Assembly (NCBI GenBank): GCA_017983615.1
Contig: JAGOBB010000004.1
Location: 62,001-126,000 of the forward strand
Direction of reading: 5' to 3'
Length of the DNA: 64,000 nucleotides
From: Azonexus sp.
GTDB taxonomy: Bacteria; Pseudomonadota; Gammaproteobacteria; Burkholderiales; Rhodocyclaceae
Position 1 is the stretch's first letter; every line of letters starts with the position of its first letter. Made by a program: the position numbers and the translations under genes. Under the pieces are notes generated by a model, which ran no database searches, was not told the DNA's origin, and saw nothing but the letters and a program-made list of their open reading frames with translations. Shown here in pieces: positions 5,897-56,484 of this stretch.

Positions 5897-5935
5897 GATT
5901 TTGGCCGTTTTTTTGGCCTTACCGTAGCATTCATG
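5897..5935 (+). repeat. Dispersed GACCGTAGCATT element, copy 1
   Basis: An intergenic copy between converging genes. The TTTTGGCC half is followed by a T-tract and ACCGTAGCATT (11 of 12 core bases; the leading G is T). Confidence 0.8.
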
Positions 5936-5937
5936 CA

Positions 5938-5970
5938 AAACGGGCGCCGTTGCGGCGCCCGTTCTTCTTT
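5938..5970. terminator. Bidirectional rho-independent terminator
   Basis: A GC-rich perfect stem (ACGGGCGCC / GGCGCCCGT, loop GTTGC-like) has TTCTTCTTT on the plus side and TTTTGC on the minus side. It lies between the converging gene ending at 5829 and the minus gene ending at 6014, so it can serve both. Confidence 0.8.
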
Positions 5971-6013
5971 CGTGCCCCGCCGAAGCGAGGCTCAAAACTG
6001 GTATGTGCGGATA

Positions 6014-6292
6014 TTAGTGCTTCAGGCTGGCCGAGAAAACCGCCTTGCTCTTTTCGGAAAACTGGAATTCGTTGAATGCGCGGTCGATTTCGGCTTCGTT
6101 ACGGCCTTCGGAATGATCTTCGAAACAGATTCCGATGGTCTTGCCGTTGGCGGCCAGTGTCTGGAAGGCGAAACGCCACCGTTGTGCTTCTGCCAGACGC
6201 TCGCGCAGTTCTGCTTCGTTGGAAATCGTGATGCCAGCCTTTTTCAGGGAATCCAGAAACTGCTCGAAGGATTCATTGCTCAGACTACCCAT
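6014..6292 (-). CDS. Conserved hypothetical protein
   Basis: A 92-residue soluble protein, mostly helical by composition, beginning MGSLSNESFEQFLDSLKKAGI. The N-terminal 30 residues (FEQFLDSLKKAGITISNEAEL) have a Nif11-like rhythm, but the rest (FQTLAANGKTIGICFEDHSEG) does not resemble a leader peptide, and I assign no family. A strong ribosome site (GAGAGAGA) precedes the ATG. It is monocistronic, converges on the preceding gene and is closed by the terminator at 5938-5970. Confidence 0.65.
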   Translation of the reverse strand: MGSLSNESFEQFLDSLKKAGITISNEAELRERLAEAQRWRFAFQTLAANGKTIGICFEDHSEGRNEAEIDRAFNEFQFSEKSKAVFSASLKH

Positions 6293-6404
6293 TTCTCTCT
6301 CTCCGTATGTATGCGGTGTTTGATCACCATGAGCCTAATAACGACACGACTTTGATTCGGTTGACACAAAATCGACAGAAGTTTGAATGCGATAATGGCG
6401 CCCC

Positions 6405-7226: not shown

Positions 7227-7232
7227 GGCGCC

Positions 7233-9122
7233 ATGACCCGCATTCAACACCCGCTCGAACTCCTCGCCCCGGCCAAGAACGCCGATTTTGGCATCGAAGC
7301 CATCAAGCATGGCGCCGACGCCGTCTATATTGGTGGCCCGGCTTTTGGCGCCCGCTACGGTGCCGGCAACGACGTCGCGGAAATACGACGCCTCTGTGAT
7401 TTCGCCCACCGCTACCGGGCCAAGGTCTTCGTCGCGCTGAATACCATCCTGCGCGACGACGAACTTGAAGAAAGCCGGCAACTGGCCTGGCAGCTTTACG
7501 AAGCTGGAGCCGATGCGCTGATCATCCAGGACATGGGCCTGCTGGAAATGGACCTGCCGCCGATCCAGCTGCATGCCAGCACGCAGACCGACAACCGCAA
7601 CCCGGAAAAAGTGAAATTCCTGGAAGATGTCGGCTTCTCTCAGGTCGTTCTGGCGCGCGAATGCAGTTTAAACGAAATTATTAAGATTGCATCGCAATCA
7701 ACTGTTTCATTGGAATATTTTGTTCACGGCGCCCTCTGTGTCGCTTACTCGGGACAGTGCTATATCAGCCACGCCCACACCGGGCGCAGCGCCAACCGCG
7801 GCGAGTGTTCTCAGGCTTGCCGACTGCCCTACACGCTGGTCGACGACAAAGGCAAGACAATCACCGAGAACCAGCATCTGCTGTCGATGAAGGACAACAA
7901 CCAGACCGAGAACCTGCTGGCGCTGGCCCAGGCAGGCGTCTGTTCGTTCAAGATCGAAGGCCGGTTGAAGGACCTGTCCTACGTCAAGAACATCACCGCC
8001 CACTACCGCAAACTGCTCGATGAACTGATCGCCGAGCACCCGGAGTTCACCCGCGCCTCCAGCGGCCGCAGCACCTGGACCTTCACGCCGCAGCCGGACA
8101 AGACCTTCAACCGCGGCTACACCGACTATTTCGCCGGCGGCCGTCAGGACGACATCGGTGCCTTCGACTCGCCGGCCTTCGTCGGCGAACTGATCGGCGA
8201 GGTGGCCGAGATCGGTGACGGATGGCTCGTCGTCAACACCGACCAGACCTTCCACAACGGCGACGGCGTCTGCTTCTACGACGGCCATGGCGAAGTGGCC
8301 GGGATGCGGATAAACCGGGCCGAAGGCAACAAGCTGTTCCCGGCCGAGATGCCAGAAGACCTGACCGAGGGCGCCACGTTGTTCCGCAACCGCGACCAGG
8401 AATTCGAACGCGCGCTGGAGAAGGAGTCGGCCGAGAGGCGGATTGCGGTCAAACCCGTTCTGGTCGAAACCGAAGACGGCCTGGAATTGACGCTGAGCGA
8501 CGGAGACGGTGTCAATGCTACGGTCAGCCGGAAATTTGGGCCAAAATCGGAATGGCAGTTGGCCCAGAATCCCGAGCCGGCAATGGCCAAGCTCAAGGAA
8601 AACCTGGGCAAGTTCGGCAACACGATGTTCGTCGCCGAGCCGGTTGAATTGAAACTGTCGCAGCCCTGGTTCCTGCCGGTCAGCGCCATCAACGCCCTGC
8701 GCCGCGAAGCCACAGAAAAGCTCGAAGCTGCCCGCATCGCCAGCCATCCGCGCCCGCCACGCGCCACACCGGCCGCTAACCCGGTGCCCTACCCGCAGGA
8801 TGAACTGACCTACCTCGGTAACGTCTTCAACGCCAAGGCCCGCGCTTTCTACGAAAAGCACGGCGTCAGGCTGATCGAGGAAGCCTACGAAGCCGGCAAC
8901 GAAAAGGGCATGGTCTCGCTGATGATCACCCGCCACTGCCTGCGCTACAGCTTCAACCTCTGCCCCAAGGAAGTGAAGCACCTGAAGCCGGATCCGATGA
9001 CGTTGATCAACGGCAACGAGAAGCTGATCCTCAAGTTCGACTGCAAGGCCTGCGAAATGCACGTCGTCGGCAAGATGAAGAAGGGCGTCAAGCTCAACCT
9101 CGGCACCATCCGCCCTGCTTAA
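7233..9122 (+). CDS. rlhA: 23S rRNA C2501 hydroxylation protein RlhA (U32 family)
   Basis: A 629-residue peptidase-U32-family protein. It has the N-terminal barrel start LELLAPAKNADFGIEAIKHGADAVYIGG, the family signature EYFVHGALCVAYSGQCYISH with a Cys cluster through GECSQACR (about 160-196), and a long C-terminal extension ending in conserved cysteines (HCLRYSFNLCPKEVK, FDCKACEMHVVGKMK). From memory of E. coli RlhA/YdcP the match runs full length, separating it from the shorter TrhP (YegQ). RlhA with prephenate makes 5-hydroxycytidine at 23S position 2501. An in-frame copy of the dispersed element (NATV) lies in a variable region near residue 430. Confidence 0.88.
   Translation: MTRIQHPLELLAPAKNADFGIEAIKHGADAVYIGGPAFGARYGAGNDVAEIRRLCDFAHRYRAKVFVALNTILRDDELEESRQLAWQLYEAGADALIIQDMGLLEMDLPPIQLHASTQTDNRNPEKVKFLEDVGFSQVVLARECSLNEIIKIASQSTVSLEYFVHGALCVAYSGQCYISHAHTGRSANRGECSQACRLPYTLVDDKGKTITENQHLLSMKDNNQTENLLALAQAGVCSFKIEGRLKDLSYVKNITAHYRKLLDELIAEHPEFTRASSGRSTWTFTPQPDKTFNRGYTDYFAGGRQDDIGAFDSPAFVGELIGEVAEIGDGWLVVNTDQTFHNGDGVCFYDGHGEVAGMRINRAEGNKLFPAEMPEDLTEGATLFRNRDQEFERALEKESAERRIAVKPVLVETEDGLELTLSDGDGVNATVSRKFGPKSEWQLAQNPEPAMAKLKENLGKFGNTMFVAEPVELKLSQPWFLPVSAINALRREATEKLEAARIASHPRPPRATPAANPVPYPQDELTYLGNVFNAKARAFYEKHGVRLIEEAYEAGNEKGMVSLMITRHCLRYSFNLCPKEVKHLKPDPMTLINGNEKLILKFDCKACEMHVVGKMKKGVKLNLGTIRPA
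8513..8548 (-). repeat. Dispersed element, copy 14 (inside rlhA)
   Basis: A perfect AATGCTACGGTC (reverse orientation), followed 13 nt later by GGCCAAAAT, so both halves are kept within the coding sequence. It encodes VNATVS. Confidence 0.85.
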
Positions 9123-9282
9123 GAGCCTGTGAAATTTTCGTTCACACCCGCTCCCCGCGCCCAAGCCAGCCCGCTCGGCGTTGCAAATGCTCGCCATAGC
9201 CCAAGCTATGGCTGTGCTTTGCGCCTTGATCGTGCACGCTTGGACACGTTGCTCGGGCGCACCCAAAAAATTCACAGGCTCT
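9122..9282. mobile_element. MITE-like palindromic element with terminal inverted repeats
   Basis: A 161-bp element bounded by AGAGCCTGTGAAATTTT (9122-9138) and its inverted partner AAAAAATTCACAGGCTCT (9265-9282). Twelve outer bases are identical and an A/T run sits inside. A central dyad CCATAGC-ccaa-GCTATGG lies at 9194-9211, and the intervening arms pair loosely. It has no coding capacity. It exactly fills the gap between rlhA, whose stop codon it touches, and the next gene. The structure is that of a non-autonomous mini-transposon or large REP-type element; the mobilising enzyme is not in the window. Confidence 0.7.
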
Positions 9283-9290
9283 GACCGCCG

Positions 9291-10010: not shown

Positions 10011-10013
10011 ACG

Positions 10014-10038: not shown

Positions 10039-10056
10039 GTCGAAGTCAGCAACAAC

Positions 10057-12237: not shown

Positions 12238-12443
12238 TCCAGGCCGTCGACCGCCAGCGCTGCGCCAGTTGCGAACGCTGGTCCGGTCCGCGTCAGTCCG
12301 GCGAGCAGGCGGGAACGGTGCTCATCGAATCGGAAACCGTTGAAGGGCTCTGCCAGGGCGGGCCGTGGGACGGCTCAGAACGGCGTGCCCGCTCGGCCTG
12401 CGGGCACTGGGTGCGGTGGTCGGCCTTGCCAGCGACCGACTAA
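12213..12443 (+). CDS. Small hypothetical protein with a CxxC motif
   Basis: About 76 residues from a GTG inside the rhodanese 3' end, or about 70 if an in-frame TTG (12231) is used. The reading frame holds a cysteine pair (QRCASCERWSG) and two further cysteines (GLCQGG, SACGHWVRW), a spacing that suggests a small metal-binding protein. Composition is Trp- and Gly-rich. No family is recognised and the start is uncertain. Confidence 0.5.
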   Translation: MQGREDLLIQAVDRQRCASCERWSGPRQSGEQAGTVLIESETVEGLCQGGPWDGSERRARSACGHWVRWSALPATD

Positions 12444-12448
12444 TTTTG

Positions 12449-12484
12449 ATTTTTGGCCTTTTTTGGGGCCGACCGTAGCATTCC
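12449..12484 (+). repeat. Dispersed element, copy 2
   Basis: A full intergenic copy between converging genes: TTTTTGGCC, 12 nt including a T-run, then a perfect GACCGTAGCATT. Confidence 0.85.
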
Positions 12485-12499: not shown

Positions 12500-13417
12500 T
12501 TACTCGTCGCGTTCACCCTGCGGCAAGGCCCCTTCCGGGAGCGCCGCCGAAACCGGTTCAGCCAGGCGCGCTGCGCGCAGGATCGGCGTTTCCAGGCTGA
12601 TCCGCCCGAGCGCGCCGCTGCGGTAATCGACGAGCAGGATGGCCGAGGCCTTTTCCATATCCAGTTCGCCGCCCCGTCCCTTGATCAGGCAGCCACGCTT
12701 TTTGGCGACGCCCTCGATCACACCGACCGCGTCGAGGCCTTCTGTAGCAAAGCCGTAGCGGGCCTTGAGCATCGCCGGATAGTGTTCGAGCAGGAAACCG
12801 GCCAGCCAGGTGCCGACTTCCTCGTCGATGTAGGCGTTGACACCGACCGCGTGGCTGGCCGCCAGCATCAGGCCGTCGACCGGGTGTGCGATCTTCGGCC
12901 ACAGCATGCCCGGGGTATCGTAGAGGGTCAGCCGGTTGTTGATATCGATGCGCTGCTGGCTCTTGGTCACCGCCGGCTGGTCGCCGACCGCCGCCACCTT
13001 CTTCTTGACCATGGCGTTCATCAGCGTCGATTTGCCGACGTTGGGGATGCCCATGATCATCAGGCGCAGCGGCTTGACGGCATCGTTGCGGTGCGGCGCC
13101 AGCTTCTGGGCCAGACCGGGAATGCGCGCCACGTCGCTGGCCTTCTTGCACGAAATGGCCACCGCCTTGACGCCCGGCTGGGCATCGAAATAGGCCAGCC
13201 AGGCCTTGGTCGCCTCGGGATCGGCGAGGTCGGCCTTGTTGAGCAGCTTGAGGCAGGGGCGCTGACGGAAGACGCGCAGCTCGTGGATCATCGGGTTGCT
13301 GCTCGCCTGCGGCAGGCGGGCGTCGAGCACCTCGACCACGACATCGGCCACGGCCAGCGTTTCGCCGGCCTTCTTGCGGGCCGAGGTCATGTGCCCCGGG
13401 AACCATTGGATGGACAT
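12500..13417 (-). CDS. ylqF: Circularly permuted ribosome-biogenesis GTPase YlqF/RbgA
   Basis: A 305-residue GTPase with the permuted G-motif order that defines the YlqF/RbgA group: G4 NKAD (about 60-63), then G1 GIPNVGKST (about 123-131), then G3 DTPG (about 168-171). The N-terminal signature WFPGHMTSARK is also typical. RbgA promotes late assembly of the 50S subunit in Firmicutes; a parallel ribosome role here is inference. It is the last gene of a minus-strand run that includes moaD-moeA-mobB, with no close functional link visible. Confidence 0.9.
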   Translation of the reverse strand: MSIQWFPGHMTSARKKAGETLAVADVVVEVLDARLPQASSNPMIHELRVFRQRPCLKLLNKADLADPEATKAWLAYFDAQPGVKAVAISCKKASDVARIPGLAQKLAPHRNDAVKPLRLMIMGIPNVGKSTLMNAMVKKKVAAVGDQPAVTKSQQRIDINNRLTLYDTPGMLWPKIAHPVDGLMLAASHAVGVNAYIDEEVGTWLAGFLLEHYPAMLKARYGFATEGLDAVGVIEGVAKKRGCLIKGRGGELDMEKASAILLVDYRSGALGRISLETPILRAARLAEPVSAALPEGALPQGERDE

Positions 13418-15409: not shown

Positions 15410-16543
15410 TCATTCAACGAACACCGGCGCAAAACCGCCGCCCGGTGTCCGGAAATTGGTGGTCTGTCCCTGGTACAAACGGGCGGCGACCAACTGGATG
15501 CGGCCAGCGTAGACGTAGCAGCGAACGTCGGCCTTCATCGTCGCCTCGCCGTCGGGCACCGGCACGACATGCTCGGAGGGCGGCGCGATTTCCTGGGCGA
15601 TGTAGCCGCCGTGCAGGATCTCCTCGAACACCCGCTTGGTCAGCTTGTCGCCACGATAGGCGGCGCGACTGCCGAAGCCGGCCGGCGGCTTGAAGAACCA
15701 GCGTTTGCGCTCGGCCCAGAATTGCTCGCCCAGTTCCGGCGTGACAGCAACGGTTTGCGGGATGCCGGCAAGCAAGGTCTTTCGGGTGGCTTCGGCAACG
15801 CCCAGCGCCTGCAGCGCGCTCTCGTCAGAAAGCTGCATCAGGTTGCGCTTGTCGGCATACAACGCGTGGGCGCGCGGATGCGGCGTCAGCACGACACCGC
15901 CATTTTCGAAAATTGCCCGAATTTTGCCATTGACCGTAGCATCCAGCGAAAAATCGGTCAGCCGGTTGTAGATCAGGTCGACCGGCTGGCCGTCGAGCAT
16001 TAGTTGCTGGCCGTCGCTGGTGAAATCGCCGGGATCGGCGACCACGGCGGCAATGCCGTGCTGCTCGAACATTTCCCGGAAAAGCGCGAACTCGGGGGCA
16101 AGGAACTGCCCGGCCGGGTTTTCGTCAACGATGGCGATACGTCGCAGCGGCACATCGCCGCGCTCCAGGCGCCATTCCTCGCGGAACATGGCGACGTAGG
16201 CGTCGCGCAGCGTAGCACCCTCCTCGGCCCGGCCGCAGGCAGCCAGCAGGTAGGCGTTGAGCAGGCCGCCGCCGGCGTTGGTGTTGATCTCGATCAGCTT
16301 CGGCCCGGCCTCGGTCAGGTGAAAGTCGTAGCCCATAAAGACGCCGCGCGCCTTGCCCGGCAGGCGCGCGATGGCCGGCGCCTGGGCCAGTGCGTGCGCC
16401 TGGTAGGCCGGCAGGGCAATGACCGATTCGATGGCGGCGATGAGATCGGCCATCGCCTGCATCGTTTTGCCATCGATCGTGATCGTGGCCGAGGAAAAGA
16501 ATTGTGGCTGCTGGGCGCGCAGTTGATCGAAGGTGGTTTTCAT
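15410..16543 (-). CDS. ATP-grasp-like protein of unknown function
   Basis: A 377-residue protein with a glutathione-synthetase/ATP-grasp feel: YDFHLTEAGPKLIEINTNAGGGLLNA in the first half, and KRWFFKPPAGFGSRAAYRGDKLT, YIAQEIAPPSEH and TMKADVRCYVYAGRIQLVAARLYQG in the second. These suggest an ATP-binding and carboxylate-amine-ligase core, but the substrate cannot be read. It starts 5 bp after the DinG-like gene and lies 18 bp before mobB, so it is probably in the same transcript; a link to molybdenum cofactor is not established. An in-frame dispersed-element copy encodes DATVN near residue 200. Confidence 0.65.
   Translation of the reverse strand: MKTTFDQLRAQQPQFFSSATITIDGKTMQAMADLIAAIESVIALPAYQAHALAQAPAIARLPGKARGVFMGYDFHLTEAGPKLIEINTNAGGGLLNAYLLAACGRAEEGATLRDAYVAMFREEWRLERGDVPLRRIAIVDENPAGQFLAPEFALFREMFEQHGIAAVVADPGDFTSDGQQLMLDGQPVDLIYNRLTDFSLDATVNGKIRAIFENGGVVLTPHPRAHALYADKRNLMQLSDESALQALGVAEATRKTLLAGIPQTVAVTPELGEQFWAERKRWFFKPPAGFGSRAAYRGDKLTKRVFEEILHGGYIAQEIAPPSEHVVPVPDGEATMKADVRCYVYAGRIQLVAARLYQGQTTNFRTPGGGFAPVFVE
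15909..15945 (+). repeat. Dispersed element, copy 13 (inside the ATP-grasp gene)
   Basis: AATTGCC, 14 nt, then GACCGTAGCATC (11 of 12). On the gene strand it reads DATV. Confidence 0.7.
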
Positions 16544-21787: not shown

Positions 21788-21812
21788 AAAGGCCGGGAAA
21801 CCGGCCTTTTTC
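21788..21812 (+). terminator. Rho-independent terminator after the Nif11-like gene
   Basis: AAAGGCCGG-GAAA-CCGGCCTTTTT: a 9-bp stem closed by a GNRA tetraloop with a T-run. A dispersed-element copy begins immediately after. Confidence 0.9.
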
Positions 21813-21850
21813 GTTTTTGGCCGTTTTTTGGGGCCGACCGTAGCATTTGC
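21813..21850 (+). repeat. Dispersed element, copy 3
   Basis: The full form, directly abutting the terminator: TTTTTGGCC, 13 nt with six T, then a perfect GACCGTAGCATT followed by TGC. Confidence 0.88.
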
Positions 21851-24080: not shown

Positions 24081-24171
24081 CTGCTGTTCAACCAATCCGT
24101 CGCCACGACGCAATGGCTGGGCATCGCCGTCGCCGGCACGGGGGTAGCGATGGCGACGCGAACAGTACGCT

Positions 24172-24209
24172 GATTTTTGGCCTTTTTTGGGGGCGACCGT
24201 AGCATTTGC
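24172..24209 (+). repeat. Dispersed element, copy 4
   Basis: Begins at the ancestral stop of the DMT gene: TTTTTGGCC, 12 nt, perfect GACCGTAGCATT then TGC. Confidence 0.87.
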
Positions 24210-28785: not shown

Positions 28786-28830
28786 GATTTTCGCTTTTGC
28801 CCCTTTTTTTGGGCCGACCGTAGCATTTGC
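28786..28830 (+). repeat. Dispersed element, copy 5
   Basis: Lies in the divergent gap between the MFS and DUF2789 genes: TTTTGCCC, seven T, GGGCC, perfect GACCGTAGCATT then TGC. Confidence 0.85.
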
Positions 28831-30272: not shown

Positions 30273-30317
30273 ATTTTTCAGTTTTGCCTCATTTTTGGAC
30301 ACGACCGTAGCATTTAC
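30273..30317 (+). repeat. Dispersed element, copy 6
   Basis: In the divergent gap upstream of the MNT gene: TTTTGCC, 14 nt with a T-run, perfect GACCGTAGCATT. Confidence 0.83.
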
Positions 30318-31407: not shown

Positions 31408-31472
31408 GTCAAGCGGAAACACCGTAAATGCAGCACAGTTGCATAATCCGATTTGCGTTCAAAGCTCAAACC

Positions 31473-33123: not shown

Positions 33124-33154
33124 AAAAAGGCCGGGATCGCTCCCAGCCTTTTTT
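33124..33154. terminator. Bidirectional terminator between the TPR gene and ppsA
   Basis: AAAAAGGC...GCCTTTTTT with an inner GGGA/TCCC pairing: a strong stem with A and T runs on both sides between converging genes. Confidence 0.85.
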
Positions 33155-33189
33155 CATTTTTGGCCGTATTTGACGGCCGACCGTAGCAT

Positions 33190-33195
<6 letters not shown>
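33155..33195 (+). repeat. Dispersed element, copy 7 (touches the ppsA stop codon)
   Basis: TTTTTGGCC, 13 nt, perfect GACCGTAGCATT. The last T of the core is the first base of the minus-strand ppsA stop triplet. Confidence 0.87.
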
Positions 33196-35565
<2,370 letters not shown>

Positions 35566-36542: not shown

Positions 36543-37325
36543 ATGATTCCCGCGCACACCCCGCTACCCCGCCCGAGCGACGTATATTTCTTCGCCACCT
36601 GCGTCGTCGACCAGTTTTTCCCCGGTGCCGGCATGGATGCCATCACCCTGCTCGAACGTCAGGGCATCCGCGTCCATTTCCCCGAGGAGCAGACCTGCTG
36701 CGGCCAGCCGGCCTACACCAGCGGTTTCCCCGACGAAGCGCGCAAGGTTGCGGCGCATCAGCTGACCTTGTTCCCGAACGACTGGCCGGTGGTCGTGCCT
36801 TCCGGTTCCTGCGCCGGCATGATGAAACACCACTATCCGACGCTGTTCGCCAATGATCCGGTGAAAAAGGCCGCCGCCGAAAAGTTGTCGGCACGGGTCT
36901 ATGAACTCACCCAGTTCCTCGTCGACGTGCTGAATTTCAAGCCCGAGGATCTCGGCGGCGACTGTACCGTCGTGCTGCACACCTCCTGTTCGGCACGCCG
37001 CGAAATGGGCGTACATCTGACTGGCCGCAAACTGCTCGACGGCCTCGGCCACGTAACTGTCGCCCAGCAGGATCACGAATCGGAATGCTGCGGCTTCGGC
37101 GGCACCTTCTCGGTCAAGCAGCCGGAAATCTCCGGTGCCATGGTCGAGGACAAGGTCAAGGCGCTCAAGGCGACCGGCGCCGAGCGCGTCGTCAGCGCCG
37201 ACTGCGGCTGCCTGATGAACATCCTCGGCCACGCCGCCTGGAAGGACCAACAAGCCGGCCTCGCGAAACCCACCCTGCCCGGCGAACACATCGCCAGCTT
37301 CCTGCTCCGGAGGACCAGCAAATGA
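36543..37325 (+). CDS. lutA: L-lactate oxidation complex subunit LutA/LldE
   Basis: A 260-residue CCG-domain protein with the paired cysteine motifs TCCGQPAYTSGF (about 52) and ESECCGFGGTFSVKQPE (about 178), plus a late ADCGCLMN. These domains bind iron-sulfur clusters in heterodisulfide-reductase-like subunits. LutA works with LutB and LutC to oxidise L-lactate to pyruvate at the membrane. First gene of the operon; its stop overlaps the lutC start (ATGA). Confidence 0.92.
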   Translation: MIPAHTPLPRPSDVYFFATCVVDQFFPGAGMDAITLLERQGIRVHFPEEQTCCGQPAYTSGFPDEARKVAAHQLTLFPNDWPVVVPSGSCAGMMKHHYPTLFANDPVKKAAAEKLSARVYELTQFLVDVLNFKPEDLGGDCTVVLHTSCSARREMGVHLTGRKLLDGLGHVTVAQQDHESECCGFGGTFSVKQPEISGAMVEDKVKALKATGAERVVSADCGCLMNILGHAAWKDQQAGLAKPTLPGEHIASFLLRRTSK

Positions 37326-37993
37326 GCGCCCGCGACCGCATCCTTGGCAAATTAAGGCAAAAAATGCCATCGACCGTAGCATTGGCACCCGATGTCGCCA
37401 CTTGGTACGCCACGCATCGTCCGGTTGAAGGTGCGACTGACAAGGCCAGGCGCTTTCGGCACTTCATCGAACTGGCTCACGCCGAAGTCCTTCCGGTAAC
37501 ACCGGCAAACTGGCTGAGCACCCTGCGTGAGGTGCTGCGCAGCAAAGGCATCGACAAGATTCTGGTCAGCGAGGAAACAACGCATGGCTGCGCGGTGCTC
37601 GACGAGTTTCCGCGCCAGGGCGTCGATTGCCAGGTCTACGACATGGCCATCGAGGCCTGGAAGACGGAGATGTTCAACGCCACCCCGGCCAGCCTGACCG
37701 CCGCCCGTGGCGCCATTGCCGAGACCGGCACGCTGATCCTGTGGCCGGATCCGGCCGAACCGCGACTGATGTCGCTGGTGCCACCGGTGCATATCGTGCT
37801 GCTCAATGCGGCCAATATCTACAACACCTTCCACGAGGCGATGCTGGCCGAAGGCTGGTCACACGGTCTGCCGACCAATGCCCTGCTCATTTCCGGCCCT
37901 TCGAAGACCGCAGACATTCAGCAAACGCTGGCCTACGGCGCGCATGGTCCGAAGGAACTGGTCGTGCTGATGCTGACGGAGGGCGAGCAATGA
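37322..37993 (+). CDS. lutC: Lactate utilization protein LutC/LldG
   Basis: A 223-residue LUD-domain protein: SARDRILGKLR at the start, ARGAIAETGTLILW (conserved ETGT), LMSLVPPVHIVLL and LISGPSKTADIQQTLAYGAHGPKELVVLML at the end. It overlaps lutA and lutB by 4 nt each. A sense-orientation dispersed-element copy falls near codons 9-22 in the variable region after the first helix and encodes MPSTVALAP. Confidence 0.92.
   Translation: MSARDRILGKLRQKMPSTVALAPDVATWYATHRPVEGATDKARRFRHFIELAHAEVLPVTPANWLSTLREVLRSKGIDKILVSEETTHGCAVLDEFPRQGVDCQVYDMAIEAWKTEMFNATPASLTAARGAIAETGTLILWPDPAEPRLMSLVPPVHIVLLNAANIYNTFHEAMLAEGWSHGLPTNALLISGPSKTADIQQTLAYGAHGPKELVVLMLTEGEQ
37346..37386 (+). repeat. Dispersed element, copy 8 (inside lutC)
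   Basis: AAGGC, 13 nt with an A-run and GCC, then a perfect GACCGTAGCATT. It is the only in-gene copy in sense orientation; it encodes STVAL. Confidence 0.85.
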
Positions 37994-39463: not shown

Positions 39464-39965
39464 GGGCATACTTTCTTTTGCTTCGCCAAAAGAAAGTAGC
39501 CAAAGAAAAGGCGACCCCAGGTTACGCGGTCGGCTGCGCCGACTCCCCTGCGCTACTCGAAACGCCGGGCGGCTGCGGAACTCGGGGCTGCGCCCCTCAA
39601 ACAGTCCTCGCCGAAGACCCCCGGCGCTTCTGCGTTGCTCGGCGCTCCACATGGGGACCCGAAAGGCGTCCCGGAGCCAAGCACCGTCCGGAAAACAAAA
39701 TGCTACGGTCGGCCCGAAAAAAAGGCCAAAAATGAAAAACCGCTGGTCGGCCACGGATGGTTTTCCGGGCCCCTTGGGAGGCGCCGAGTAACGCAGACGT
39801 TGGCGGAAAAAGGGCGAGGACTGTTTGAGGCCCGCAGGGCCGAGTTCCGCAGCCCCCGCCTACGTCGAGTAACGCAGGGAACCCGCGCAGCGGGCGCCGA
39901 CCCAGGGTCGCCTTTTCTTTGCTTACTTTCTTTTGGCGAAGCAAAAGAAAGTAAGACGCCCCTCA
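39464..39965. repeat. Large imperfect inverted repeat filling the lutB-dld gap
   Basis: The 615-bp gap between lutB and the D-lactate dehydrogenase gene is mostly an inverted repeat with arms of about 225 bp. Exact paired blocks include CTCAAACAGTCCTCGCC (39596-39612) with its reverse complement at 39813-39829. Each arm carries a hairpin (ACTTTCTTTTG / CAAAAGAAAGT at 39470-39497; a 14-bp version at 39922-39955). The dyad centre near 39712 is occupied by dispersed-element copy 9. Nothing else is coding here; long frames through it are artefacts. Confidence 0.82.
39697..39737 (-). repeat. Dispersed element, copy 9 (at the inverted-repeat dyad)
   Basis: AATGCTACGGTC (39699-39710, perfect, reverse orientation), 13 nt, then GGCCAAAAAT. 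It sits at the symmetry centre of the 39464-39965 repeat. Confidence 0.87.
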
Positions 39966-40035: not shown

Positions 40036-42804
40036 ATGAGCGAACTGATCCACCACCTCAGCCAATACCTCCCGGCCAACCAGATCATCGTCGACGACCT
40101 GCGCCGCCTCGCCTACGGCACCGACGCCAGCTTCTACCGCCTGACGCCGCAGGTCATCGCGGTCGTCGAATCCGAGGCCGACGTCCGTGCCGTGCTGCAA
40201 ACCGCCAGACAGCATGCCACCCCGGTCACATTCCGGGCAGCCGGCACCAGCCTGTCCGGCCAGGCGATCACCAACGGCGTGCTGGCCCTGATCGGGGAAG
40301 GCTTCGCGACCTGCGATCTGAACGCCGATGCCAGCCAGGTCAAGGCCGGCCCAGGTATCGTCGGTGGCGAGGTCAATCGGCGGCTTGCGCCCTTCGGCCG
40401 CAAGATCGGCCCCGATCCGGCCTCGATCAACGCCTGCAAGATCGGTGGCATCGCCGCCAACAACGCTTCCGGCATGTGCTGCGGCACGGCCCAGAACAGC
40501 TACCGGACGCTGGCCGGCCTGCGCGTCATGCTGGCCGATGGCACCGTGCTCGATACGGAAGATGCCCGCAGCCGCGACACCTTTGCCCAATCCCACGCCG
40601 TGCTGCTCGGCGAACTGGAACGCCTGGGCCGCGATACCCGCGCCAACGTTAAGCTGGCCGAGCGCATCCGCCACAAGTTCAAGATCAAGAACACCACCGG
40701 CTACAGCCTCAACGCGCTGGTCGATTACGAAGACCCGATCGACATCCTCAGCCACCTGATGATCGGCTCGGAAGGCACGCTCGGCTTCATCTCGCGGATC
40801 ACCTACAACACTGTCGTCGAAGACCCGTTCAAGGCCAGCGCCCTGGTTTTCTTCCCGGACATCCGCACCGCCTGCGAGGCGGTCATCCGCCTCAAGCCGC
40901 AGCCGGTCTCGGCCGTCGAACTGCTTGACCGCCCGGCGCTGCATTCCGTCGAGAACAAGCCCGGCCTGCCACCGATCATTCGCCAGCTTGGCGAAGAAGC
41001 CGCCGCGCTGCTGATCGAAGTGCGGAATGCTACGGTCGATGGCCTGCAGGAGCGGATTTCCGCGGTCCATGCCGCGATGGACGGCATTACCACGGTGGAG
41101 CCGATGGTTTTCTCGACCGACCCGGCGAGCTGCGAGATGTACTGGAAAGTGCGCAAGGGCACCTTCCCCTCGGTCGGCGCCATGCGCCGTACCGGCACGA
41201 CGGTGATCATCGAGGACGTCGCCTTCCCGATTGCCGCGCTGGCCGACGCCACCCTCGACCTGCAGGCCCTGCTCCGCCATCACGGCTACCACGAGGCGAT
41301 CATTTTCGGCCACGCGCTGGAAGGCAACCTGCACTTCGTGTTCACCCAGGATTTCGGCGATCAAGCCGAGATCGACCGCTACGCCCGCTTCATGGACGAC
41401 GTCAGCCATCTGGTCGTCGACAAATACGACGGCTCGCTGAAGGCCGAGCACGGCACCGGCCGCAACATGGCGCCATTCGTCGAACTCGAATGGGGCAAGG
41501 AAGCGGCCGACCTGATGCGCAGGATCAAGCGCCTGTTCGACCCGGACAACCGCCTCAACCCCGGCGTCATCCTCAACGACAACCCGCACGCCCACCTTGA
41601 GAACCTGAAGCCGATGCCGGCCGCCGAGGACATCGTCGACCGCTGCATCGAATGCGGCTTCTGCGAACCGCTATGCCCCTCGCACCGGCTGACCCTCTCG
41701 CCGCGCCAACGCATCGTCAGCGTCCGCGAACTGGCCCGCCGCGCCGCGGCCGGCGAACCGGCTGGCGCCCTCGGCGAAGACTACCCTTACATGGGCCTCG
41801 ACACCTGCGCCGGCTGCGGCCTGTGTTCGACGGCCTGCCCGGTCGGTATCGACACAGGCGACCTTACCCGGCGCCTGCGCGGCCGCCAGCTTGGCGAAAC
41901 GGCCCGCGCAGTCAACGCCTGGACCGGCAACCATTTCGCCACACTGGCCAACGCCTCGCGCCTCGGCCTCAAAATTGGCCACGCCGTCTCCGGCGTGCTC
42001 GGCGACAACTTCCTCGGCCGCATTTCCGGCGGCGCCTGGAAGAAGAACATGCCGCATGCCGGCAAGGCGCCGGTGGCGCACCGCGGCCAGGGCGATCCGG
42101 TGGTCTATTTCCCGACCTGCGGCGGCCGCATCTTTGGGCCATCGACGGCCGGCGAAGCCCAGCTCGGCGACGTCATCAGCGAACTGCTGGTTCGTGCCGG
42201 TTACGATCCGATCCTGCCCGACGGTTTCGAACAACTGTGCTGCGGCCAGATGCTGGCCAGCAAGGGCATGGAAGAGGAAGCCGGCGCCATGTCCGACGCA
42301 CTCGAAGCGGCGCTGCTCAAAGCGTCGAACAACGGTCAGTACCCGGTGATCATGGACGCCAGCACCTGCACCGCCCGCATGCAGAAGCACCTGGCCGACC
42401 GGCTGAAACTCTACGATTTCCACGAATTCGCCCACGACGCCCTCTTGCCGCGCCTAGTCATCACCAAGCAGCCCGGCCCGGTCGCCCTGCACATCAACTG
42501 CAGCGTGCGCAAGACAGGTTCCGACGCCAAGCTGAAAAAACTGCTCACCGCCTGCACCGAACAGATCGTTGAACCGGCCGGCGTCACCTGTTGCGGCTTC
42601 GCTGGCGACCGTGGCTTCGTCGTCCCGGAACTCAACCAGCACGCCCTGCGCAAGATCCACGACGAGCTGCCGGCCAACTGCACCTGCGGCGTATCGACCA
42701 ACCGCACCTGCGAAATCGGCCTGACCGCCGAGACCGGCATCACCTACCAGTCGATCGCCTATCTGCTCGACCAATGCAGCCGGCCACAGGAAGGCGGGTG
42801 CTGA
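40036..42804 (+). CDS. FAD/Fe-S D-lactate dehydrogenase (GlcD-GlpC fusion type)
   Basis: A 922-residue fusion. The N-terminal FAD-binding oxidase domain has VTFRAAGTSLSGQAI and CKIGGIAANNASGMCCG; the C-terminal FAD-oxidase domain ends KAEHGTGRNMAPFVELEWG. Two 4Fe-4S motifs follow (CIECGFCEPLCPS, CAGCGLCSTACPVGID), then GlpC-like CCG domains (LCCGQML, TCCGFAGDRGF). This layout matches the quinone-linked respiratory D-lactate dehydrogenase Dld-II of Shewanella; placement after lutACB supports D-lactate as substrate. A dispersed-element copy encodes RNATVDG near residue 333. Confidence 0.88.
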   Translation: MSELIHHLSQYLPANQIIVDDLRRLAYGTDASFYRLTPQVIAVVESEADVRAVLQTARQHATPVTFRAAGTSLSGQAITNGVLALIGEGFATCDLNADASQVKAGPGIVGGEVNRRLAPFGRKIGPDPASINACKIGGIAANNASGMCCGTAQNSYRTLAGLRVMLADGTVLDTEDARSRDTFAQSHAVLLGELERLGRDTRANVKLAERIRHKFKIKNTTGYSLNALVDYEDPIDILSHLMIGSEGTLGFISRITYNTVVEDPFKASALVFFPDIRTACEAVIRLKPQPVSAVELLDRPALHSVENKPGLPPIIRQLGEEAAALLIEVRNATVDGLQERISAVHAAMDGITTVEPMVFSTDPASCEMYWKVRKGTFPSVGAMRRTGTTVIIEDVAFPIAALADATLDLQALLRHHGYHEAIIFGHALEGNLHFVFTQDFGDQAEIDRYARFMDDVSHLVVDKYDGSLKAEHGTGRNMAPFVELEWGKEAADLMRRIKRLFDPDNRLNPGVILNDNPHAHLENLKPMPAAEDIVDRCIECGFCEPLCPSHRLTLSPRQRIVSVRELARRAAAGEPAGALGEDYPYMGLDTCAGCGLCSTACPVGIDTGDLTRRLRGRQLGETARAVNAWTGNHFATLANASRLGLKIGHAVSGVLGDNFLGRISGGAWKKNMPHAGKAPVAHRGQGDPVVYFPTCGGRIFGPSTAGEAQLGDVISELLVRAGYDPILPDGFEQLCCGQMLASKGMEEEAGAMSDALEAALLKASNNGQYPVIMDASTCTARMQKHLADRLKLYDFHEFAHDALLPRLVITKQPGPVALHINCSVRKTGSDAKLKKLLTACTEQIVEPAGVTCCGFAGDRGFVVPELNQHALRKIHDELPANCTCGVSTNRTCEIGLTAETGITYQSIAYLLDQCSRPQEGGC
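41024..41045 (-). repeat. Dispersed element, copy 10 (inside the D-lactate dehydrogenase gene)
   Basis: Perfect AATGCTACGGTC followed by GATGGCC; the outer T-rich half is eroded. Encodes NATVDG. Confidence 0.8.
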
Positions 42805-47537: not shown

Positions 47538-48311
47538 TCAGACCGCCAGTTTTCGGCGCAATGCCTCGAACAGGCAAACCGCCGCTGCCGCGCCAACGTT
47601 CAGCGATTCGACGGCACCGGGCATCGGAATTTTGATCCGCAGCCCGGCGGCTTCGATCAACTCGTGCCTGACCCCCAGGCCCTCGGCCCCAAACACCCAG
47701 GCCAGCGGCCCGCTCCATTTAGCCTCGTAAAGCGAGGTAGCGCCGTCGAGGCAGGTGACTGCCGTCGTGCCGCGATAGTCAGCCATGAAGCTGGCCAGAT
47801 CGACGTCTTCATGGATGGTCAGGACAAAGTGGGCGCCCTGCCCGGCGCGCAGCACTTTCGGAGACCACGCCGAGGCGCAGCCCGGAGACAGCAGCGCCTG
47901 GCCGATACCGGCCGCCGCTGCCGTGCGCAGCAGGGTTCCGACGTTGCCGGGGTCCTGCACACCGTCGAGCAAAATTGCCTCTTTTTCGAGGCCGACCGTA
48001 GCATTTGCCTTGGGTATAGCCACCACCGCCAGCAGGCCGCTCGGCGTGTCGACCAGGCCCAGGTCGCGCATCAGCGCATCGGCCAGAACGACGATTTGGC
48101 GCTCTGCAACGTAAGCGGCAATTTCGCCGCCGGCCAGCGCAGACTCAGCGACGACCAGGGTTTCCGGCGATCCGTAAACCTTTTCGTAAGCTTCGACCAG
48201 ATGCACGCCGTCGAGCAGGGTCTGCCCGGTTTTCCGGCGCTCCCGGCCCGATTCGGCCAGCCGCTTGAGGTGCTTGAAGAAAGCGTTGTCGCGCGACTGG
48301 ATCAGTTTCAT
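47538..48311 (-). CDS. TrmH/SpoU-family RNA 2'-O-methyltransferase
   Basis: A 257-residue SPOUT methylase with an N-terminal substrate-binding domain ([20 protein letters not shown]) and the knotted catalytic domain: [37 protein letters not shown] and [25 protein letters not shown]. The target RNA is not evident. It overlaps rnhB by 4 nt at the end of the lpx operon. A near-complete dispersed-element copy encodes the linker [10 protein letters not shown] between the two domains. Confidence 0.88.
47971..48009 (+). repeat. Dispersed element, copy 11 (inside the SpoU methylase gene)
   Basis: AAAATTGCC, 14 nt with five T, GAGGCC, then a perfect GACCGTAGCATT and TGCC. This in-gene copy keeps nearly the whole intergenic form; the gene strand reads NATVGLEK. 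Confidence 0.87.
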
Positions 48312-51248: not shown

Positions 51249-51250
51249 TT

Positions 51251-52294: not shown

Positions 52295-52797
52295 TACTTG
52301 GCTTCCGACAACGCTTTGATCACCCGCTCGGTAATGTCCAGACGCGGACTGACCCAGACCACATCCTGCAGAATCAGATCAAATTTCTCGGCTTCGGCAA
52401 TCTGCTTGATGGCCTTGTTGGCCTTTTCGATCACTGCTGCATTCTCTTCATTCTGACGGAGATTCAGATCCTCACGGAATTCGCGCTGGCGACGCTGAAA
52501 CTCACGGGACAACTCACCGAATTCCTTTTCCTTGGCCCGACGGTCGCTCTCAGCCATCGTCACCGAATTCTTTTCCAGATTTTCCTGCATGCCCTGCAAC
52601 TGCTTGGCCATACGCTGCAGATCCTGATCCCGCTTGGCAAACTCACCTTCCAGCTTCTTGGCGGCCTTCTGAGCAGCCGGCGCATCTCGGAAGATGCGTT
52701 GCGTATTCACATAACCCACCTTCAGCTCGGAAGCGATAGCGCCAGTAACGCAGAGGACAGACATCAACGATGCCAGAACAACGGACTTAATTTTCAA
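52294..52797 (-). CDS. skp: OmpH/Skp-family periplasmic chaperone
   Basis: A 167-residue protein with a signal peptide ([22 protein letters not shown]) and the Skp core: [18 protein letters not shown] at the body domain, long Lys/Glu/Gln-rich coiled-coil tentacles, and a closing [20 protein letters not shown]. It carries unfolded outer-membrane proteins to BamA, whose gene lies just upstream in the same operon. Confidence 0.93.
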
Positions 52798-52812
52798 CTT
52801 GATACTCCTGAA

Positions 52813-55113
52813 TCAAAATGTGCTGCCCAACTGGAACTGGAACAACTCTGGATCATCACCCGCCTGCTTGTTCAGCGGCTTACCCAGACTGAATTTTAAC
52901 GGACCCAATGGGGAAATCCACGCGATGGAGATACCCGTCGAGTAGCGCAGATCGCTAAGTGAAAGTTTATCGCCACTCCCCCACACCTGACCAGCGTCGA
53001 CAAACCAGCCCATGCGGAAGGTTTTTTCCATCCCAGGGATACCCCAAAGCAATTCGGCATTGCCTACAGCACGACGATTACCGCCGATGCGATACGTGGT
53101 AGTGACGTTGTTAACAGTATCCGAAATTGTCGGGCCAAGACTCGATGCCTTGTAGCCTCGAACTGAACTGACACCACCCGCGTAGAAATTCTTGAAGAAC
53201 GGCAATTCCTTACCGCCGTAACCGTTGGCATAGCCAACCTCGCCGTTGAGCATCAACGTAAACTGCTTGCTAACCGGAATATAGTATTGCGCCTGATAAC
53301 TGGCCCGGTAATAGGTCAGATCGCCACCCGGCGTAGCAAGCTCAAGCCCGGCCTTCTGATAGAGACCGCTGGTCGGGAAGAAATAGCTGTCCTTACCATC
53401 GCTGGTCCAGTTGAGTGTTAGCGGGATCGAAAGCTTCGTCACCGAATCATTGTTCGGATAATCAACGTAATTACGGTAGAGAAGTGGACTGGTGCTATAG
53501 GCGGTAATTCTTGTCGAATCAATCCCAAGACCAAAGCCAAGCGACTCTTTCTCGCCAATCGGAAAGCCAAAACGAATGCCACCACCGGTCGATGCCGAAC
53601 TGTAATAGGCAAGCGCCGTATTGCTGGTGTTCGTTGTCCGGTGATAGATATCAAAGCCTTGACTAACCCCATCCGCCGTAAAGTAGGGGTTGGTGTATGA
53701 AAATACGTAGGTTCGATAGGATTTAGCCGAATTAACCTGAATAGCGACGTTATTGCCGCTACCCATGAAATTGTTCTGGGCAATCGAACCGGAGAGGATG
53801 ATCTTGTCGGTACTGGACGTACCGACGCCAAGCATCAAATTGCCGGTAGGCTTCTCGGTTACGTTGACATTGACGTCCAACTGATCCGAAGTGCCTGCCA
53901 CTGCTGGCGTTTCGATGGCAGTCTCGAGAAAGAACCCCAGCTTGTCGATCCGCTGCTTGGAACCGGCCACCTTGTCGCCGTCGTACCAGCCGCCTTCCAT
54001 CTGGCGTATTTCCCGACGGACAACTTCATCGCGGGTCTTGGTGTTGCCGGTGATATTGACACGGCGCACGTAAACGCGCTTGCCCGGATCGACAAAAATC
54101 GTAAAGGCGACTTGGTGCTTTTCCTTGTCGATTTCCGGAGCCGCATTGACGTTGGCGAAGGCGTAGCCCTCCTTGCCCAGACGATCGCTGATCGCCTTGG
54201 TCGACTCGTTCAGTCGATCGCGCGAAAAGACATCGCCCGCCTTGACCGTGACGAGCTTTTTCAATTCGTCCTCGGGAATGGAAAAGTCACCGGCCAGCTT
54301 GACCGAGGAAACCTGATAGCGCTCCCCCTCGATGACGTTGGCCGTGATGTAGACGTCCTGCTTGTCCGGAGAAATGGAAACCTGGGTTGATTCGACGGCA
54401 AATTCCAGATAGCCCTGATTCATGTAGAAGGACTTCACCTTCTCCAGATCGGCTGACAGCTTCTGCCGCGAGTACTGGTCGTTCTTTGTATACCAGCTCA
54501 GCCAAGTTGGCGTTGTCAGCTCGAACAGGCCTCTCAGTTCCTTATCGGAAAAGGCCTTCGCGCCGACGATGTTGATCTGCTTGATCTTGGCAGCAGCGCC
54601 TTCTTCGATATTGAAGTTGATGCCGACTCTGTTGCGTTCGAGCGGTGTCACCGTCGTCGTGATGGCAGCCGCGTACTTGCCACGCGTCAGGTATTGGCGC
54701 TTCAGTTCCTGCTCTGCCTTTTCAAGCAGCGCACGGTCGAAGATGCGCCCTTCGGCGATCCCGGTTTCCTTGAGCGCCTTGACGATGACGTCTTTGTCGA
54801 ACTCCTTGAGCCCGACAAAATTCAGCGTGGCGATCGCCGGCCGTTCCTGAACGACAACGACCATGACATCCTTTTCGATTTCAATCCGGACGTCCTTGAA
54901 AAAACCTGTGGCGAACAAGGCCTTGATCGACTGGGCAGCCTTTTCGTCGTTCAGCGTATCGCCGACCTTGACCGGCAGATAACCGAAAACCGTTCCTGCT
55001 TCCGTGCGCTGAATTCCCTCGACCCGAATATCCTTGACTGCAAAAGGTTCGAATGCCAGCGCGGGGGTGGCAAACATGCCGGCAATCAGGATGGACAGCA
55101 GGGATTTTTTCAT
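52813..55113 (-). CDS. bamA: Outer-membrane protein assembly factor BamA
   Basis: A 766-residue Omp85 protein: signal peptide (about 1-20), five POTRA domains (about 22-420, e.g. FAVKDIRVEGIQRTEAGTVF; VKDIRVEG-type starts recur) and a 16-strand barrel with the conserved SSVRGYKASSLGP region of loop 6 (VRGF/Y motif). It ends QFQLGSTF with the terminal Phe. It inserts beta-barrel proteins into the outer membrane. Four bp downstream of rseP. Confidence 0.96.
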   Translation of the reverse strand: MKKSLLSILIAGMFATPALAFEPFAVKDIRVEGIQRTEAGTVFGYLPVKVGDTLNDEKAAQSIKALFATGFFKDVRIEIEKDVMVVVVQERPAIATLNFVGLKEFDKDVIVKALKETGIAEGRIFDRALLEKAEQELKRQYLTRGKYAAAITTTVTPLERNRVGINFNIEEGAAAKIKQINIVGAKAFSDKELRGLFELTTPTWLSWYTKNDQYSRQKLSADLEKVKSFYMNQGYLEFAVESTQVSISPDKQDVYITANVIEGERYQVSSVKLAGDFSIPEDELKKLVTVKAGDVFSRDRLNESTKAISDRLGKEGYAFANVNAAPEIDKEKHQVAFTIFVDPGKRVYVRRVNITGNTKTRDEVVRREIRQMEGGWYDGDKVAGSKQRIDKLGFFLETAIETPAVAGTSDQLDVNVNVTEKPTGNLMLGVGTSSTDKIILSGSIAQNNFMGSGNNVAIQVNSAKSYRTYVFSYTNPYFTADGVSQGFDIYHRTTNTSNTALAYYSSASTGGGIRFGFPIGEKESLGFGLGIDSTRITAYSTSPLLYRNYVDYPNNDSVTKLSIPLTLNWTSDGKDSYFFPTSGLYQKAGLELATPGGDLTYYRASYQAQYYIPVSKQFTLMLNGEVGYANGYGGKELPFFKNFYAGGVSSVRGYKASSLGPTISDTVNNVTTTYRIGGNRRAVGNAELLWGIPGMEKTFRMGWFVDAGQVWGSGDKLSLSDLRYSTGISIAWISPLGPLKFSLGKPLNKQAGDDPELFQFQLGSTF

Positions 55114-55116
55114 CGT

Positions 55117-56484
55117 TCAGCCGTTAAACAGGCGGGTCAAGTCGTTAAAAAAGGCGAAAGCCATCAAGGCGAAAAGGATGGACATGCCGACTTGCTGTCC
55201 TATCTCCATGGCACGCTCGGAAAGCGGCCTGCGCCTGACGACTTCAATCATATGATACAACAAATGCCCACCATCGAGCACCGGGATGGGCAGCAGATTC
55301 AGGACGCCGAGACTGATGCTGACCAGCGCCATGAACTTGAGGTAATAGTCCAGCCCGAGCCGGGCAGACTGTCCGGCATAATCGGCGATCGTCACCGGTC
55401 CCGAAAGGTTCTTCCACGACACTTCGCCGGTCAGCATCTTGCCCATCATGACCAGACTGAATACCGACTTGTCCCAGGTCTCGACCAGTGCCCGACGCCC
55501 CGCCTCAACGAACCCATAGCGCACAAAGGTTCTGACATCGCGCTTCGACGCTTCGGTTTCCGCAACGGCAACGCCAATTTTTCCTACCTTGCGCCCACTT
55601 TCGGAAATTGCCTCCGAAAACACATCGACCGTAGCATTTACGCCGCCGCGGTCCACTTCGAGCCGCAGCGAGCGTCCGGCAGCTTCGCGTACCTTCGCGA
55701 CAAAGGCCATCCACGTCGCCACCGGCTCCCCATCGACGGCCAACACCAGGTCCCCAACCTGCAAGCCGGCCTTGGCCCCCGGGCCACCAGCCACCAACTT
55801 GCCGATCACCGGCGGCATGTCGGGACGATAAAAACGGACGCCCAGGCGCTCCAGCGCATCGCCCTCCCAGCCCTGTTCGCCGGCAGCGGCGAGATACAGC
55901 CGCCGAATGGAAATTTCACCGCGCGCATCGATCATTTCCAGTTCGACGCTTTCCTGCTCGACAGCCTTCTGCATCAGCACCCAACGAAGCTCATTCCAGG
56001 TAGCGACGGACTGACCGTCCACCCGACGCACCTGCTCGCCATTCTGCACGGCGGCCATGGCAGCCGGAGTACCCTCCGGCGGCGTGCCGAAGATCGGCAG
56101 CAACTCCTGGCTGCCGACCATGAAGACAGCCCAATAAAGTGCGATGGCCAAGGCAAAATTGGCCAGTGGCCCGGCAGCAACGATGATGCTGCGCTTTCCC
56201 ACTCCCTGCCGGTTGAACGCACGGCCAGCCTCGGCGGCCGCCACCTCGCCCTCGCGCTCATCCAGCATCTTGACGTAACCACCGAGCGGAAAGGCGCTCA
56301 ACGCCCATTCCGTACGGTCCTTGCCGAATTCCTTTTTCCACAGGATGCGGCCAAAGCCGACCGAGAAGCGCAGGACCTTGACGCCGCACCAGCGGGCGGC
56401 CAGATAGTGACCCAATTCATGGACAACGATCAGGACACCGAGAACCACCGCAAAGGCGGCGAGATAGAACGGCAGGTCGTTCAC
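55117..56484 (-). CDS. rseP: RIP zinc metalloprotease RseP
   Basis: A 455-residue site-2 protease. [24 protein letters not shown] carries the HExxH zinc site (about 23-27). Two PDZ domains follow (about 115-280), then the third zinc-ligand region [22 protein letters not shown] near the C-terminus. It cleaves the sigma-E anti-sigma factor in the membrane. Overlaps dxr by 4 nt. A dispersed-element copy in PDZ2 encodes [10 protein letters not shown]. Confidence 0.95.
55604..55643 (+). repeat. Dispersed element, copy 12 (inside rseP)
   Basis: AAATTGCC, 14 nt, perfect GACCGTAGCATT then TACGCC. The gene strand reads VNATVDV. Confidence 0.85.

Follow-up and report, generated by a model that had tools for sequence, protein, structure and literature searches.

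Apart from the candidate treated here, literature searches show self-DNA uptake tags in only two bacterial families. One is the Pasteurellaceae, whose USS has the core AAGTGCGGT in Hin and ACAAGCGGT in Apl. The other is the Neisseriaceae, whose DUS has eight dialects and the receptor ComP. Azonexus/Dechloromonas is a mainly environmental genus, and literature searches gave no report of uptake sequences in it. We argue that a 41-bp tag in this genus serves as a DNA uptake sequence, and we put the probability of this reading, which is built from genome sequences, at about 0.85. The genus is thus likely a third lineage with uptake sequences, one that joins a USS-like layout to DUS-like dialects on cores of its own. 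A DNA uptake sequence was the first lead of the initial annotation of the window (the whole 64,000-nt stretch of DNA analysed here). Nearly every genomic signature that could be tested fits it, the exception being close inverted pairs. The annotation also knew of no described element with such a sequence. Our literature searches gave none either, and the sole match for the 12-mer was a breast-cancer paper.

The core of the tag is GACCGTAGCATT. A word search of the window gives 12 exact cores and 2 cores with one mismatch, the same numbers as first claimed. They were also said to be far above chance, and indeed shuffled windows average only 0.17 matches with at most one mismatch and have 2 at the most (100 shuffles). 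The core given as 12472 starts at 12471. The one-mismatch copies are both on the plus strand, at 5892..5932 (core at 5920, TACCGTAGCATT) and at 15904..15944 (core at 15932, GACCGTAGCATC; inside ORF 15410-16543). Exact plus-strand copies are found at 21808..21848, 24167..24207, 28788..28828 and 30275..30315. Others on that strand are at 12443..12483, shortly before the end of the minus-strand ORF 12500-13417; at 33151..33191, between ORF 31428-33107 and the minus-strand phosphoenolpyruvate synthase gene 33190-35565; at 37344..37384; at 47966..48006, inside a minus-strand SpoU-type RNA methylase gene (47538-48311) where the site was compared genus-wide; and at 55599..55639, inside the minus-strand rseP (55117-56484). 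The minus-strand copies are all exact and are found at 8513..8553 (inside ORF 7233-9122), 39698..39738 and 41025..41065. The last is inside the GlcD-like ORF 40036-42804 and has a poor near A/T tract, with A or T in only 2 of 6 positions. Six copies had been placed within genes. This holds for those with cores at 41026, 47994 and 55627, whose ORFs have family matches. The ORF around 8514 has a partial family match only, the one around 15932 has no Pfam match, and copy 37372 falls just past the end of the ORF tested, 36543-37325.

Two A/T tracts lie at -22..-18 and -12..-7 relative to the core, about one helical turn apart. Either A or T is accepted in them (79 copies). Each letter of a GGCC between the tracts is present in 67-73% of the same 79 copies, and T is found at -27..-25 in 59-72%. 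At least 9 of the 11 tract bases are A or T in 82 of 86 perfect copies (498 kb), compared to 0.6% of random positions. The initial annotation had described a second half at fixed spacing. The spacing is real, and in the test of other copies that had been set beforehand the tracts are in place in these 82 of 86. The idea of one fixed sequence is not, and two A/T tracts describe it better. The same tracts are seen in two genus-mates that use the host spelling, G444 (16 copies) and G462 (9 copies, noisier). In the GGTTGACCGTRG dialect they are displaced by about one base at most (10 and 13 sites).

This is the layout that PMC1626085 describes for the Pasteurellaceae USS, a short core then two A/T-rich segments on the same side about one helical turn apart, and here the near segment is weak in the GTCGACCG dialects. 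The same account gives the USS an excess of perfect copies, an origin by substitution, clade-specific types and both orientations, all of which are also seen here. The cores are different. The USS core ANNNGCGGT has a GCGG centre and the host core AATGCTACGGTC has no GCGG; only the GTCGACCGCAR dialect has, on its other strand, GCGGT, which is the USS centre. The present tag is in a betaproteobacterial lineage, has GGCC between its tracts and a third T segment, is 41 bp long where PMC12616744 gives up to 32 for the USS, and has four counted dialects in one genus. Its density is 0.15 per kb, several-fold lower than in USS and DUS, for which about one copy per kb is stated. The Neisseriaceae DUS resembles it in other ways. 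PMC3630211 describes a DUS core of 10-12 bp with multiple dialects that follow phylogeny, PMC12616744 places the DUS in Betaproteobacteria too, and a ComP_DUS-type pilin is encoded here. However, the cores are unrelated, as the inner CTG of the DUS is absent and GACCGTAGCATT has neither CTG nor CAG. According to PMC1626085 the DUS is without flanking A/T segments, whereas the present motif has them.

The host belongs to Azonexus/Dechloromonas, and its 2.92-Mb draft genome has 451 exact copies of GACCGTAGCATT and 0 of the reversed word used as a control. A genome-wide count against chance was a test set beforehand, and the number of copies is far above chance. There is no overall orientation bias (223 forward, 228 reverse), so the 11:3 strand bias noted earlier is local to the window. 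In 498 kb there are 86 perfect cores and 12 with one mismatch. Spacing is more even than random placement would give, with a CV of 0.69 vs 0.95, and only 0.2% of 2000 simulations are as even (79 sites, 458 kb). A crude gene caller marks 86% of the DNA as coding, yet 50 of the 86 copies fall outside the genes that it calls. Perfect-copy excess, even spacing and non-coding preference match the genomic signatures that PMC1626085 lists for USS and DUS. Close inverted pairs are known for both, common but not defining. There are none in 458 kb of G000, where the smallest gap is 700 bp, and G411 has one pair 42 bp apart. Among viral contigs, two stretches carry the strict motif.

Genus-mates share the centre GACCG in other spellings. 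These are GGTTGACCGTRG, with 395-518 copies per genome in eight genomes, GTCGACCGCAR, with up to 1051, and GTCGACCGTG, with up to 943. One of four dialects is found in 41 of 76 genus genomes and none in the other 35, with classes that rest on our own thresholds. The tag core, in the host or another spelling, is abundant in 40 of 75 genus-mates. Unguided k-mer counts gave further spellings on the GACCG centre in 3 of 5 additional genus-mates, and no dialect in G218 (a repeat array only) or G417. Two of the words were searched for outside the genus and are not enriched there. Cultured members carry the tag as well: Dechloromonas hortensis DSM 15637, taken to be G363, has 426 GTCGACCGCAR words, and Azonexus fungiphilus DSM 23841 has 6 GTCGACCGTG words in 21 kb.

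One can imagine a chromosome-organising or nucleoid-protein binding site that is spread evenly between genes, with a protein specificity that differs by clade. The even spacing, the non-coding preference and the A/T tracts about a helical turn apart would all suit it. We consider this unlikely. The draft genome has no overall strand bias, and the ratio of perfect to one-mismatch copies is 7 to 1. PMC1626085 contrasts such an excess strongly with sites of regulatory proteins, whose consensus is relaxed. That hundreds of sites are respelled between clades and that no dialect was found in 35 of 76 genomes would be surprising for a housekeeping site.

Homologous sites bear on whether the motif is inserted as a unit. 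At the SpoU-gene site (47994) YGACCG is present in 28 of 51 relatives, each species having its own spelling at the same gene position. The alignment is gapless in 23 of those 28 and in 31 of the 51 overall. The spelling tracks an RseP tree better than chance, with 19 changes against a mean of 26 and a minimum of 21 in 300 shuffles. At the rseP site (55627) 18 of 25 motif-bearing relatives are gapless, as are 24 of 57 relatives overall. Small gaps are common in motif-free relatives (15 of 23 at 47994, 26 of 32 at 55627), the longest being 9 bases. A spanning homologue exists for only 16 of the 86 sites. These give 88 alignments, 48 of which stem from one site; 56 have no gap (the genome itself is among these), 26 have indels up to 6 and 6 have larger ones. 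A clean motif-sized insertion is seen in no alignment at the two genic sites or among the 88. For the genic sites compared, the motif arises by substitution and not by insertion, and homologous sites differ by substitutions and small indels. In H. influenzae, PMC1626085 gives gaps in 24% of the alignments, most of them beyond the core. At the intergenic site L076:17102 the 41 bases are incomplete in two motif-free relatives, which are without 17 and 27 of them, and an insertion or deletion is possible at that site.

REP/BIME elements are hundreds of short, mostly intergenic repeats, a hairpin element inserted by a Y1 transposase (RAYT). The present motif is also hundreds of short, mostly intergenic repeats with a strong consensus, and a REP-type dyad was the second lead of the initial annotation. 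If a RAYT (TnpREP) transposase spread such a mobile repeat, the 17- and 27-base gaps at the one intergenic site could be explained. Of the 14 window copies, 10 were folded (plus strand, without 5920), and 8 of these form slightly more stable folds than shuffled sequences do, with a z below -2 in one. Y1_Tnp genes do occur, one in G000 and two in G462. We nonetheless reject this scenario as very improbable. No clean insertion is seen in the alignments, the two genic sites compared are mostly gapless in motif-bearing relatives with gaps of at most 9 bases in motif-free ones, and the tract columns take A or T rather than one sequence. No conserved hairpin is seen in the 10 folded copies, whose z-scores spread from -2.66 to +1.03. 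Nor is there a consistent transposase, as the check for RAYT finds Y1_Tnp absent from 8 of 10 motif-rich genomes (G444, which is 74% complete, G409, G443, G442, G445, G408, G404 and G307). A structured RNA is rejected too, with no match in an Rfam search of the window and only one of the folded copies below -2. A regulatory operator or transcription-related element, be it a very large regulon, a terminator accessory or a pause site, has just as little chance: several copies are near ORF ends and a T-rich run adjoins the G/C arm, but the 36 genic copies take either orientation (14 sense, 22 antisense by the crude caller), Rfam has no match in the window, and the 12-bp core is near-perfect at 451 sites.

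Under the uptake-sequence reading, tagged DNA of the cell's own species would be the DNA that its type IV pilus prefers to bind and import. The core would be recognised by a pilin on the cell surface, and the duplex would bend or kink more readily at the A/T tracts as it passes the secretin. Tags would stay near-perfect because imported tagged alleles would recombine. Dialects would change when the reader changes, cutting clades off from one another's DNA. We think it quite probable that Azonexus/Dechloromonas is a third bacterial lineage, and the first from the environment, to use a self-DNA uptake language. The tag would be genus-wide, exist in four or more dialects, have been lost secondarily several times and combine a USS-like bent-DNA architecture with a core of its own, and its reader would be a minor pilin of ComP/FimT type. 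A third lineage in a mainly environmental genus lets one ask why uptake tags evolve; PMC7811141 links the known cases to mucosal habitats. The genus offers natural replicates, as it has clades that switched dialect, clades without the motif and members in culture. If a core and phased A/T tracts arose convergently, this would suggest a physical requirement of duplex uptake and not common descent. The system may also help to find the USS receptor, which a 2025 paper calls unidentified.

The initial annotation asked for comEC, comEA and pilin genes. The host encodes ComEC, ComEA and type IV minor pilins, though motif-free genus-mates do as well. ComEA is above cut-off in 67 of 76 genus genomes, a ComP_DUS-type pilin is in 70 of 76 and a FimT/GspH pilin is in 22 of 23 genomes. 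The ComEC and ComEA models pick up E. coli and other controls too. Since motif-free genomes have the machinery and the models match controls, it does not discriminate motif-bearing from motif-free genomes. Motif-rich G462 (372 copies, 470 contigs) has no ComEA, ComP_DUS or GspH match, and motif-rich G430 has a stop in the FimT frame. The minor-pilin locus has two layouts: a compact one with the ComP_DUS pilin beside FimT and a classical one with fimT well upstream of pilE, judged from pilin genes inspected at 10 loci and from coordinates alone in the other genomes. The GGTTGACCGTRG group, the GTCGACCGCAR group and the motif-free genomes each include both layouts, and for this reason we gave up the idea of layout determining dialect. 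The ComP_DUS-type and FimT/GspH pilins are candidate receptors. Compared to solved structures, two G444 pilins resemble general type IV pilins, mainly through their N-terminal part.

The window holds 12 exact and 2 one-mismatch copies of the host's 12-mer core, GACCGTAGCATT, just as the initial annotation counted, while 100 shuffles of it gave a mean of 0.17 matches allowing up to one mismatch. The word is also far above chance across the host genome (2,921,885 bp in 34 contigs, 85.66% complete), which has 451 exact copies and 0 of the reversed word. These split 223 forward to 228 reverse, so the 11:3 orientation bias first noted is local to the window. We argue it is likely that the 41-bp motif containing this core is an uptake sequence like the USS of Pasteurellaceae and the DUS of Neisseriaceae. 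In 498 kb of the host there are 86 perfect cores versus 12 with one mismatch, and two-mismatch words are at the control level (27 versus 33). The copies are spaced more evenly than random (CV 0.69 versus 0.95; 0.2% of 2000 simulations were as even), and 50 of the 86 lie outside called genes, with 86% of the DNA called coding by a crude gene caller. An excess of perfect copies, even spacing and a preference for non-coding DNA are USS and DUS signatures listed by Redfield and colleagues in the available part of PMC1626085. Close inverted pairs are listed there too, and none occur in 458 kb of the host. Another genome has an opposite-orientation pair of cores 42 bp apart (G411:C48:37155-37208), like the USS and DUS pairs. 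The palindrome CCTGCAGG is enriched as well (214 versus 28 expected in RseP loci L131-L182; 48 versus 16 in the 498-kb sample of the host genome, G000), and TCCTGCAGGA more strongly so (82 versus 1.1 and 7 versus 0.6 in the same two sets).

The motif profile comes from an alignment of 79 exact copies in 458 kb of the host. Counting from the core, there is a T segment at -27 to -25 (T in 59-72% of copies), a far A/T tract at -22 to -18, a GGCC (each letter in 67-73% of copies), a near A/T tract at -12 to -7 and a G/C-rich spacer whose last base is C. The core and then one pyrimidine follow. Tract columns tolerate either A or T, with T the more frequent in most, and the tract centres are about one helical turn apart. 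The USS has a like layout of a core and two A/T-rich segments at helical-turn spacing (PMC1626085, same part). The fixed spacing reported for the window is kept elsewhere: 82 of the 86 perfect copies (498 kb) have at least 9 of 11 A/T across both tracts, versus 0.6% of random positions. The anatomy is similar in two other genomes, G444 (16 copies) and G462 (9 copies, noisier). Tract positions in the GGTTGACCGTRG dialect, a clade-specific core spelling, match the host's to about one base. The GTCGACCG dialects have a strong far tract and a weak near one, which reduces the uniformity of the architecture. By our inference, the core on duplex DNA would be read by a pilin located at the tip of the pilus, and the phased A/T tracts would make the DNA easier to bend or kink as it passes the secretin, a role argued for the USS in the available parts of PMC7811141 and PMC12616744. 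Biased uptake plus recombination would keep the tags near-perfect.

Homologous alignments indicate that the motif arose by substitution, not insertion, at the genic sites compared. Copy 47994 sits in a SpoU-type RNA methylase gene, where relatives spell the site gccatcGACCGTAGCATTT (locus L131), ccggttGACCGTAGCATTC (L150), ccggttGACCGCAGTAACC (L153) and gaggtcGACCGCAGCAAAC (L161), and L132 and L133, near the host, have degraded forms. YGACCG is present there in 28 of 51 relatives (23 gapless), and the other 23 comprise 8 gapless and 15 with small gaps. At the rseP copy (55627), 25 of 57 relatives have YGACCG (18 gapless) and 32 do not (6 gapless). The longest gap at these two sites is 9 bases, well below the motif length, and a copy at the argD end behaves similarly in the four homologues compared. 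A survey of all sites found a spanning homologue for 16 of 86, with 48 of the 88 alignments coming from one site. It gave 56 gapless alignments (one is the host itself), 26 with indels of up to 6 bases and 6 with larger ones, and no clean motif-sized insertion among the 88. An indel origin is possible at L076:17102, an intergenic site where 17 and 27 of the 41 bases are missing from two motif-free relatives. The gaps seen in motif-free alleles lower our odds for the uptake-sequence reading slightly, by one or two points.

The motif was rejected as either the Pasteurellaceae USS or the Neisseriaceae DUS itself, since the core test specific to each failed. The available part of a 2025 paper (PMC12616744) gives these as the only families with known uptake sequences. 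We found no published uptake sequences for Azonexus, Dechloromonas, Rhodocyclaceae or Rhodocyclales in the open-licence literature, so prior print is possible. Read on the opposite strand, the commonest dialect, GTCGACCGCAR, also includes the USS centre GCGGT, and its side relative to the A/T tracts is the same. This likeness is kept as a lead only, because the other dialects lack GCGGT.

By RseP the host groups with Azonexus/Dechloromonas, a mainly environmental genus; the nearest RseP records (82-84% identical) are from unclassified proteobacterial MAGs. GACCGTAGCATT is abundant in 3 of 76 genus genomes (451, 372 and 310 copies), has 12-53 copies in 7 others and at most 6 in the remainder. 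Among 399 sampled genomes of the order, those outside the genus hold at most one copy each. K-mer counting in five more genus-mates revealed alternative spellings with an unchanged centre in three of them: G409 has overlapping words of CCGGTTGACCGTAGC, G307 of CGGTCGACCGTG and G404 of GTCGACCGCAGC. It found no dialect spelling in G218 or G417. Genome-wide, GGTTGACCGTRG has 395-518 copies in each of eight genomes and 214 in one more, GTCGACCGCAR has 1051 in G445 and more than 400 in twelve others, and GTCGACCGTG has 943 in G448 and 886 in G307. By thresholds of our own choice, 41 of the 76 genomes were assigned a dialect (3 the host spelling; 10, 24 and 4 GGTTGACCGTRG, GTCGACCGCAR and GTCGACCGTG) and 35 none. 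G452, G465 and G432 have mixed dialect words, GTCGACCGTG is elevated in two genomes classed as none (G401, 129; G402, 94), and L153 has an additional spelling, GTTGACCGCAG. GTCGACCGCAR, the other word checked outside the genus, has a maximum of 43 copies (G528; its control has 9) among 241 family genomes.

A few host-spelling copies occur in G218 (L117, L046), G440 (L059) and G417 (L127, L051), which have no abundant dialect, within stretches that share 79-88% identity with the host. These stretches look as if they were tagged DNA that was transferred in. The strict motif is also present in two viral contigs, L261 and L262; these could represent phages of the genus, or the edges of prophages.

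On the RseP tree, where 19 of 53 inner branches are without support, the spelling at 47994 takes 19 changes (mean 26, minimum 21 in 300 shuffles) and motif versus none takes 10 (mean 17, minimum 12 in 300 shuffles). Several motif-free groups are nested among motif-bearing ones, which we read as repeated motif loss.

The host encodes ComEC and ComEA, and ComEA is above the cut-off in 67 of the 76 genus genomes. Since the ComEC and ComEA models hit controls such as E. coli too, they indicate uptake capacity at most. A pilin of the ComP_DUS type (ComP is the DUS receptor) is found in 70 of the 76; of the 23 genomes searched for a FimT/GspH pilin, 22 have one. Judged by coordinates, the two genes mostly lie close together. 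The minor-pilin locus has two layouts, neither tracking dialect, and pilin genes are also found in motif-free genomes. The motif-rich G462 has no match to the ComEA, ComP_DUS-type or FimT/GspH models. The host FimT gene is truncated by the contig end. FimT/GspH frames with an in-frame stop occur in G449, which has no dialect (G449:C1:4106297-4106500), and in G430, which has 601 GTCGACCGCAR words (G430:C1:1802232-1802387).
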